A stretch of DNA of 64,000 nt, taken from NCBI GenBank assembly GCA_024280775.1, contig JAJRPM010000002.1, forward strand, positions 1 through 64,000. The letters are read 5' to 3'. The notes beneath the pieces are model-generated. The model was given only the letters and a program-made list of their open reading frames with translations. It did not search any database and was not told where the DNA came from. The stretch is from Candidatus Zixiibacteriota bacterium (GTDB lineage Bacteria > Zixibacteria > MSB-5A5 > GN15 > JACZUZ01). The position numbers and the translations under genes were made by a program. The stretch's first letter is position 1; every line of letters starts with the position of its first letter. This document shows positions 1,917-5,413 of the stretch, in pieces.

Positions 1917-2393
1917 CTACCAATTTGACTCCCCTTGAATAGGGCTTGAATGAAAACTCTTTATGTGATACGCTTGATTACAACTGGGGCAGGTGAAGTA
2001 GCCAGTTGAGTTGTTATTGTCTTGAAGTATTTGTCTTAGCTTATTGGCGAAACAACTTGGACATATGTAGTGTCTGTGAGGTGTGTCAGATACGTACACA
2101 TCGGCACCTCCATCTGTATGCACAAGCTTGTAATCTTCAATCTCTTCTTCCCAATCTTCGAGCTTGTCAATTGTATTTTGAAGAGTTCTGATTTCGTTTT
2201 CGAGGTTATGAATTGATTCCATAGCCTTAAACATAAGGTCTGGATCGGCTACAAATTGTTGGATGGGTTCAAGCAGCCCTGCTAACTCGCTAGGATCAAT
2301 CTTTTGATCTTTCTCTTTTGCCAGAAGTTCTTTCACATTTTTCGCAACAGAAGTAATTCCAATAGCCAGTTTCGTGAAATATTCTAATTCCAT
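1917..2393 (-). CDS. Coiled-coil protein with C-terminal zinc ribbon
   Basis: A 158-residue protein. Residues about 55-90 are Glu/Lys/Leu-rich and look like a coiled coil (IHNLENEIRTLQNTIDKLED). Residues 111-138 form a zinc ribbon with two knuckles, CPSC at 111-114 and CPSC at 135-138. This layout is common in uncharacterised nucleic-acid or protein-binding adaptors, and I cannot name a family. A good ribosome-binding site (AAAAGGAGTATATC) precedes the ATG. It lies 35 bp downstream of the archaemetzincin-like gene on the same strand, so the two may be co-transcribed. Confidence 0.7.
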   Translation of the reverse strand: MELEYFTKLAIGITSVAKNVKELLAKEKDQKIDPSELAGLLEPIQQFVADPDLMFKAMESIHNLENEIRTLQNTIDKLEDWEEEIEDYKLVHTDGGADVYVSDTPHRHYICPSCFANKLRQILQDNNNSTGYFTCPSCNQAYHIKSFHSSPIQGESNW

Positions 2394-2428: not shown

Positions 2429-2971
2429 TCAAGCCTTCCCAGTCAACTGCCGCGAACATATATCACACAACTTCCGAGCCTTCTGATCTATTTCCATCAT
2501 GTTACTCGTGTCATAATGCACACAACGGGAGTTTCGGCAGGAGTTGACTTTGAAGACGTAGCCTAGTTGGTGAATTACCTCTTTATAGAGTCGGTCATAG
2601 ACTTTGCTCTCATCCTCGGGGAGACCGTAGAACTCCTGACGGATTTGAAAGAGCGAGACCACCGCGACTCCCGGCAAATGGTCGCCGTAGCCGATGACGT
2701 AGTTCTCGTCAGGAAGGTAGAGGTCGTCTTCGCACACCGCTATCACTTTTTCGCGTTGATTAGCTTTGGCGCGTTCGAGTTTGGAGAGGACGACTCGGGC
2801 GTAGTATTGCCCGCGGATGACATTAAAGGATTCCTCGGGCATTTTCATGCCCTTGAGAATATCCACCGAGCGGTCGAAAACCGGCCCGACTTCGGTAGCC
2901 AGACGGTTGACTATGGTGAAATCCACCTCGCCAAGAGGGACAACCACGATTTTCGCTTTCAATAAGGCCAT
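2429..2971 (-). CDS. Archaemetzincin-like protein lacking catalytic residues
   Basis: About 180 residues, resembling archaemetzincins (peptidase family M54). The usual signature is HExxHxxGxxHC followed by CX4C and a distal CxxC. Here the core reads HQLGYVFKVNSC at about residues 134-145. The catalytic Glu is Gln, the second zinc His is Tyr, the Gly is Lys and the third His is Ser. The structural-zinc cysteines are all kept (about C145, C150, C169, C172). So the fold is retained and the protease centre is gone. I place the start at the second of two adjacent Mets (MALLKAKIVVVPLG), where family similarity begins; the frame extends 13 codons further. There is no frameshift or internal stop. Confidence 0.8.
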   Translation of the reverse strand: MALLKAKIVVVPLGEVDFTIVNRLATEVGPVFDRSVDILKGMKMPEESFNVIRGQYYARVVLSKLERAKANQREKVIAVCEDDLYLPDENYVIGYGDHLPGVAVVSLFQIRQEFYGLPEDESKVYDRLYKEVIHQLGYVFKVNSCRNSRCVHYDTSNMMEIDQKARKLCDICSRQLTGKA

Positions 2972-3063
2972 CATACAACCTATATAAGCGCCTTTCTGTC
3001 TGCCGCACAAGCGCTTTGGGCGTTAGAGACCACGAAAGTGAGATGGAATCAAGGGAAGAACCA

Positions 3064-3180
3064 GTCATTGCGAGCGAAGCGCGGCAATCCCGCGAATTCA
3101 AAGAGTGACTTTCAGCGATGAGATTCAGCAATGAGATTGCCACGTCGCCCGGCGCTTTGCGCCTGACTCTTCGCAATGAC
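3064..3180. repeat. ATTGCGAGC-family repeat, copy A
   Basis: Starts GTCATTGCGAGCGAAGCG and ends CTTCGCAATGAC, so the outer ends are inverted repeats. An inner GGCAATC/GATTGCC pair adds a second inverted arm. This copy has a short internal duplication (GATGAGATTCAGCAATGAGATT). Similar short palindromic elements with these ends are widespread in bacterial genomes and are non-coding. Confidence 0.85.
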
Positions 3181-3210
3181 GAATTGATTGGCCGATTCTT
3201 GGTTCTGGAT

Positions 3211-3315
3211 GTCATTGCGAGCGAAGCGCGGCAATCTCGCAGATTCATAGAGCGGTTTACTGGCGACGAGATTGCCGCGTCGTTGGGCGCTTTGCGTCCT
3301 ACTCCTCGCAATGAC
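3211..3315. repeat. ATTGCGAGC-family repeat, copy B
   Basis: Same architecture as copy A: GTCATTGCGAGCGAAGCG at the left, CTCCTCGCAATGAC at the right, with inner GGCAATC/GATTGCC arms. It lies about 145 bp upstream of the pepA start. The minus-strand and plus-strand open frames across 3.1-3.4 kb are artefacts of these repeats. Confidence 0.85.
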
Positions 3316-3401
3316 TGGTTGGAGTGGGGGGACGGTCAAAACTTGCGTTTGGGGGCTCTTATCTCTTTCTTGGCTTTGGCCGTTATTTCCGGGCTGGCTG
3401 T

Positions 3402-4983: not shown

Positions 4984-5087
4984 GTCATTGCGAGCGAAGC
5001 GCGGCAATCCCAAGGATTCAAAGAACGCATTGGGCCAATGAGATTGCCACGTCGTCACGCGCTTTGCGCCTGACTCCTCGCAATGAC
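4984..5087. repeat. ATTGCGAGC-family repeat, copy C
   Basis: First of three near-tandem units between pepA and prfB. Outer ends are GTCATTGCGAGCGAAGCG and CTCCTCGCAATGAC. It begins 12 bp after the pepA stop, so a pepA transcript would end in this palindrome. Confidence 0.85.
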
Positions 5088-5119
5088 AGGTTTTGCCGGG
5101 TCGCATTTAGGACCAGGCA

Positions 5120-5224
5120 GTCATTGCGAGCGAAGCGCGGCAATCCCGCGGATTCGAAGAGCGGTTTTCTGCCGATGAGATTGCCACGTCGTCATGCGCT
5201 CTGCGCCTGACTCCTCGCAATGAC
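5120..5224. repeat. ATTGCGAGC-family repeat, copy D
   Basis: Second unit. It is separated from copy C by a 32-bp spacer (AGGTTTTGCCGGGTCGCAT...CCAGGCA) that recurs almost unchanged before copy E, so repeat and spacer were duplicated together as a unit of about 137 bp. Confidence 0.85.
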
Positions 5225-5256
5225 AGGTTTTGCCGGGTCGCATTTGGGGCCAGGCA

Positions 5257-5360
5257 GTCATTGCGAGCGCAGCGCGGCAATCCCGTGGATTCAAAGTGCG
5301 GTTTTCTGCCGACGAGATTGCCGCGTCGTCATGCGCTCTGCGCCTGACTCCTCGCAATGA
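5257..5360. repeat. ATTGCGAGC-family repeat, copy E
   Basis: Third unit. One base in the left end differs (GAGCGCAGCG), and the right end reads GCAATGAA, so the terminal C is lost. It ends 54 bp before the prfB start codon. Confidence 0.85.
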
Positions 5361-5413
5361 ACAGGTTGAACAGAGATACAACAAAGAGAACCTAGAAAGA
5401 GTTAGTAATCATC

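Follow-up and report, generated by a model that had tools for sequence, protein, structure and literature searches.

The gene at positions 2429 to 2971 (minus strand) of the window, the 64,000-nucleotide stretch of Zixibacteria DNA analysed here, belongs to a lineage of archaemetzincin (M54) proteins that have lost catalytic residues and kept the predicted fold. The lineage is under strong purifying selection, has been inherited vertically throughout the phylum and lies in the gene order (deoB-deoC)-ZR-M54-helicase, where ZR is a small zinc-ribbon protein. Our best overall explanation, to which we assign a probability of about one half, is that this pseudo-archaemetzincin is kept as a binding protein, an adaptor that would act together with ZR and the helicase.

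Family membership and loss of the active site

The frame holds 180 codons without an internal stop and ends with the stop codon at 2429-2431, in agreement with the original prediction of an uninterrupted gene. The length of 180 residues is counted from the second Met; a further ATG lies one codon upstream, and the longest frame begins with a TTG at 3010. Residues 43-176 matched the Pfam family Peptidase_M54 (PF07998) with 58.5 bits (E 1.2e-15), above the curated cut-off of 24.4, while the NCBIfam model for the archaemetzincin peptidase (NF033823) gave 132.8, below its cut-off of 145. An AlphaFold model built from 91 aligned sequences had a mean pLDDT of 94.4 and a pTM of 0.90, and its top five Foldseek matches in the PDB were all archaemetzincins (3lmc, 2x7m, 3zvs and 4axq; TM 0.79-0.91). 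These structures are AmzA of Methanopyrus kandleri (2x7m) and the proteins of Archaeoglobus fulgidus (3zvs, 4axq) and Methanocorpusculum labreanum (3lmc). Judged from its sequence and this model, the window gene is a genuine archaemetzincin by descent and predicted fold, as had been proposed.

The active-site core, HExxHxxGxxHC in active archaemetzincin peptidases, lies at 2537-2572 (minus strand) and reads HQLGYVFKVNSC, both directly and in an alignment of 143 M54 proteins of Zixibacteria. The catalytic Glu is replaced by Gln, the second His by Tyr, the Gly by Lys and the third His by Ser. The claim that every catalytic residue is replaced was thus right in each of these changes and slightly too strong as a whole, since the first zinc His is retained and two of the three are lost. 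The Met of the Met-turn (CxM), expected in an active peptidase, is His152. The four structural zinc cysteines (C145, C150, C169 and C172, numbered from the second Met; 2456-2539, minus strand, together with His152) are all there, as foreseen, and no aligned homologue from the phylum departs from this Cys4 motif. Because only one zinc His is left, the catalytic zinc site presumably cannot form as it does in the family, given its known chemistry (PMC3427221), and on the same ground we rejected a still-active enzyme that uses other ligands. The window protein is very probably a pseudo-enzyme.

Distribution and stepwise loss in the phylum

M54 matches were found in 121 of 133 Zixibacteria genomes (77 of the 79 of good quality) and in 23 of 109 genomes from other phyla. 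An orthologue from the degenerate clade was present in 113 of the 133. When the tree of the 143 aligned proteins was computed without the 12 core columns, 112 rows formed one clade (SH-aLRT 99), with one copy per genome; the 113th orthologue, a short fragment (G001) outside these rows, was assigned by its core and context. The clade branches in line with the taxonomic families, a sign of vertical inheritance. Canonical HELGHTFGLxHC copies fall outside the clade and are patchily distributed in the phylum. In three genomes from two different families (G011, G039 and G114; L048, L074, L165 and L166) a pair of canonical genes lies about 9-11 kb apart, and these pairs look as if they had moved together horizontally.

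All 113 orthologues keep the four cysteines and 110 have a degenerate core, a pattern far beyond chance. The catalytic Glu is kept in 14, all three His in five, and both in three (G010, G100 and G103), the only members with the full HExxHxxGxxHC core. Between these extremes the losses form a series, from the intact core (G010, G103) through a change of Glu to Gln only (G110) and of the third His to Asn (families f15 and f17) to nearly complete loss (f1, f9 and f10). Glu alone is changed in the core HQLGHLLGLKHC of f14 and the third His alone in HEVGHMLGLKNC of f15; other families read HQLGHLWGFANC (f13), HQLAHLFDLTEC (f2), RVVGALFSIPYC (f5) and KIVARLMGMRAC (f9), so that the replacements vary by family. 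The orthologues with HExxHxxGxxN or a near form in f15 and f17 (L162-L164 and L173-L175), whose third zinc ligand is Asn, are natural intermediates. The HQxxY form, put forward as a possible conserved clade, turned out to be confined to near relatives within the genus and the family (f1), and what is conserved as a clade is the broader group with degenerate cores. A tree of 94 rows, with other phyla included, required a minimum of nine changes between Glu and non-Glu and seven between full and degenerate core; these numbers carry no direction, and some long branches are uncertain. The presence of intact cores within the clade implies that its ancestor was active and that catalysis was lost several times independently.

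Selection on the degenerate clade

Nei-Gojobori estimates for same-genus pairs gave a median dN/dS of 0.043 in the degenerate clade (37 usable pairs) and of 0.101 in the canonical copies of the phylum (nine pairs). Single values are rough, since many pairs are saturated at synonymous sites, among them the window protein and its nearest relative G075 (pS 0.81, pN 0.071); pairs with dS below 1.3 ranged from 0.01 to 0.11. Eight positions (K7, P45, E47, K64, E66, E74, D97 and N147, from the second Met) are at least 92% conserved in the clade and not in the canonical copies, and most of the newly conserved positions sit in the N-terminal half, while the core columns vary freely. At the level of sequence this pattern fits a new binding role and not decay. 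A decaying remnant without function would account for active-site residues that differ among lineages, as relaxed sites do, and is nevertheless extremely improbable in view of these new conserved positions, a dN/dS near 0.04, frames free of stops, near-universal retention across the phylum and the invariant structural cysteines. On the dN/dS results we rejected relaxed selection or a pseudogene, and the original reading as a pseudo-enzyme under selection is supported.

Conserved neighbours

The conserved row in the clade consists of deoB, deoC, ZR, M54 and a helicase. The ZR gene lies directly upstream of M54 in 89 of the 107 loci with enough flanking sequence, most often 4 bp away or overlapping, and the helicase gene no more than 600 bp downstream in 75 of 111; both flank M54 in 68 of 105 loci. 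Neither neighbour occurs at any of 30 canonical M54 loci. These counts come from related genomes and do not represent independent events, and in some families the helicase or ZR is not adjacent to M54.

ZR has about 60 residues, with the consensus RPFxGxxFKCCxVYSRIYLNKxGTAFVGWCPKCAAKxExxVSPxGSxxRFFxA. All Pfam families stayed below cut-off for it, and the searches for solved relatives and for similar folds returned nothing significant. It was found in 96 of the 133 Zixibacteria genomes (two of the matches weak, near E 1e-3) and in one of the 109 others, G186 (C148:3990-4175; L271/L281), where M54 lies on another contig; this match could be a transfer or contamination. The zinc triad is broken at every one of the 89 loci with ZR, and all triad-intact loci with enough upstream sequence are without ZR. 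A genome-wide search for ZR found none in G100, G103, G109 and G110; in G010 its sole match was not significant.

The helicase carries DEAD, Helicase_C, WHD_HRQ1 (PF22982, a winged helix) and MZB (PF09369, a zinc domain), the set that defines the MrfA/Hrq1 type; against TIGR03817, a named subgroup of such helicases, it scored 656, below the cut-off of 874. In G010 the helicase is already downstream of an M54 gene with an intact core, so the linkage between M54 and helicase probably predates the catalytic loss and ZR accompanies the degenerate state. The linkage of M54, helicase and ZR was not seen among the M54 loci fetched from outside the phylum. One genome of another phylum (G219) encodes another two degenerate M54 proteins, which seem to carry signal peptides (L207 4965-8054 and L206 764-1480); one of them has TPR repeats and adjoins a RecQ-type helicase gene, a single case.

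The row in the window's own genome

In the genome from which the window comes (G000) the row is broken, with the helicase at C1:562-2835, ZR at C14:43541-43729 directly behind deoC, and M54 on C5. All three genes are retained though apart, which is consistent with a partnership of their products. Because M54 and the helicase each sit close to the start of a contig, the contigs do not show how far apart the two are. Relatives retain the order, ZR-M54 in G075 (same genus) and ZR-M54-helicase in G073 and G074 (same family). Where relatives carry the ZR gene, upstream of M54, the window has repeats of about 105-260 bp (3062-3321). A unit of about 105 bp from this interval, between M54 and pepA, occurs again just downstream of the ZR gene on C14 (L278 7756-7870; 77-85% identity by blastn). 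Recombination at such repeats may explain the broken row. More repeats of about 105-260 bp, including 4984-5368, and a Y1 transposase gene (IS200-like, possibly REP-associated; 250-759) are also present in the window.

Downstream of M54, on the same strand, a coiled-coil, zinc-ribbon-like frame (1917-2393, minus strand) follows as described in the original prediction. Neither 39 related genomes nor the remaining fetched loci contained a match to it. As a feature of G000 alone among 40 genomes it is an incidental neighbour, and we rejected it as a conserved partner.

Proposed role and alternative explanations

We suggest that an active archaemetzincin ancestor lost its catalytic zinc site while the metzincin fold was kept as a zinc-stabilised binding protein. 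In most Zixibacteria M54 would then be a non-enzymatic adaptor subunit with ZR and an SF2 helicase of the MrfA/Hrq1 type, and M54 and ZR might recruit or regulate the helicase on damaged or blocked DNA. The partnership with the helicase, suggested by gene order, has in our estimate slightly less than an even chance. More tentative still, at roughly one chance in three, is an obligate complex of a phylum-wide non-proteolytic M54 with ZR and the helicase. Such a complex would be a new module for DNA processing, its protease fold having been converted repeatedly into a structural subunit. Synteny inside one phylum can persist without a complex.

The main rival, although improbable, is a transcription cofactor like CarG of Myxococcus, a non-DNA-binding pseudo-archaemetzincin that would, at ECF-sigma promoters, assist a protein that binds RNA polymerase. 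Experiments have established CarG as a non-proteolytic, archaemetzincin-like protein with a Glu to Gln change (PMC8156234, PMC3427221); it is monomeric, does not bind DNA, binds CarD and is described as restricted to myxobacteria (PMC8156234, PMC4374960). In families f2-f4, about 37-40 loci (L075 1798-2951 and equivalents) have genes for an ECF sigma factor and its zf-HC2-type anti-sigma factor 3.6-4.2 kb upstream of M54 and on its strand, but such genes are near in only part of one order, and the nearest neighbours are ZR and the helicase. A joint clade of Zixibacteria and CarG proteins gave a p-AU of 0.71, with neither joint nor separate grouping rejected; the HExxHxxGxxHC members inside the Zixibacteria clade make losses separate from CarG more likely. 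Membership of CarG itself was rejected. The window protein scored 77.5 against the CarG equivalog model (NF033824), far from the cut-off of 250, and it has lost the second and third His of the CarG motif, HQxxH with the zinc His kept. In addition, four Zixibacteria genomes (G000, G089, G010 and G045) had no stand-alone CarD/CdnL, with PF02559 matches only in Mfd-sized proteins. A CarG orthologue (332 bits against NF033824) was seen in G159 (L202, L224), a genome that also encodes another degenerate and highly diverged M54, HQLGHLWELHHC.

The original proposal of a peptide-binding or sensing role, here taken to use the former substrate cleft, is a little less probable than a CarG-like cofactor. 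In its favour, the clade retains the fold and, near residues 83-94, part of the strand (D83, Y85, P87), but F93, E95 and A96, which hardly vary among canonical copies, are relaxed in the clade, and the N-terminal bias of the newly conserved positions also speaks against the cleft. The neighbouring genes suggest ZR and the helicase as partners instead. They also include deoB and deoC, and M54 might belong functionally with nucleoside catabolism, for instance by regulating that operon. These genes are upstream in 67 loci of seven families, and in G000 deoC and ZR are still adjacent with M54 and the helicase elsewhere, an arrangement by which gene order alone cannot separate the helicase from deoB/deoC as the partner. 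We nevertheless rate this role as unlikely, at about the level of peptide binding or just below it, because the adjacency is narrower than that of ZR or the helicase (12 families each) and M54 lies away from deoC in G000. To our knowledge no pseudo-metzincin acts in the deoB/deoC pathway.

Relation to known systems

With the archaemetzincins of MEROPS family M54 (PF07998) the window protein shares fold, length, the Cys4 structural zinc motif and 24-30% sequence identity; it differs in having no catalytic Glu, one zinc His of three and no Met-turn Met. Human AMZ1 also has its third zinc His replaced (Asn/Ser/Thr; PMC3427221), like the HExxHxxGxxN forms of Zixibacteria families f15-f17, but is eukaryotic, keeps HExxH and is described as an aminopeptidase. 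The downstream helicase has the domain set of the MrfA/YprA and Hrq1 helicases. In Bacillus, MrfA takes part in the repair of mitomycin C damage (PMC12458937, PMC11194089). Its partner there is the exonuclease MrfB, as against the ZR and M54 partners suggested here by gene order; a search of a YprA-family survey (PMC12458937) turned up no peptidase-like or zinc-ribbon partner.

A limited search of the open-access archaemetzincin literature found no description of a phylum-wide main copy that is a pseudo-archaemetzincin, of a lost zinc triad, of the stepwise series or of the ZR/helicase operon, and nothing was found in open-access literature on Zixibacteria and pseudoproteases together. The usual description of pseudo-proteases is of scattered paralogues that accompany active enzymes, whereas here an entire bacterial phylum has a pseudo-archaemetzincin as its main copy. 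The series from intact to lost cores makes the change from enzyme to structural subunit directly testable, and a fold whose biological role is poorly known would be tied to a helicase of a DNA-repair type and to a zinc-ribbon protein that falls in no Pfam family.

The closest functional comparison is CarG of Myxococcus xanthus (NF033824), which likewise keeps the structural cysteines and has no protease activity, a loss that for the window protein is predicted from its residues. CarG has three His, a Glu to Gln change and CarD as its partner; in the Zixibacteria protein the zinc triad is gone and gene order suggests ZR and the helicase. As CarG is already known, a non-proteolytic archaemetzincin is not new in kind. 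By its sequence features, the Zixibacteria protein is a second, larger and more degenerate lineage of non-proteolytic archaemetzincins, with putative partners different from those of CarG.
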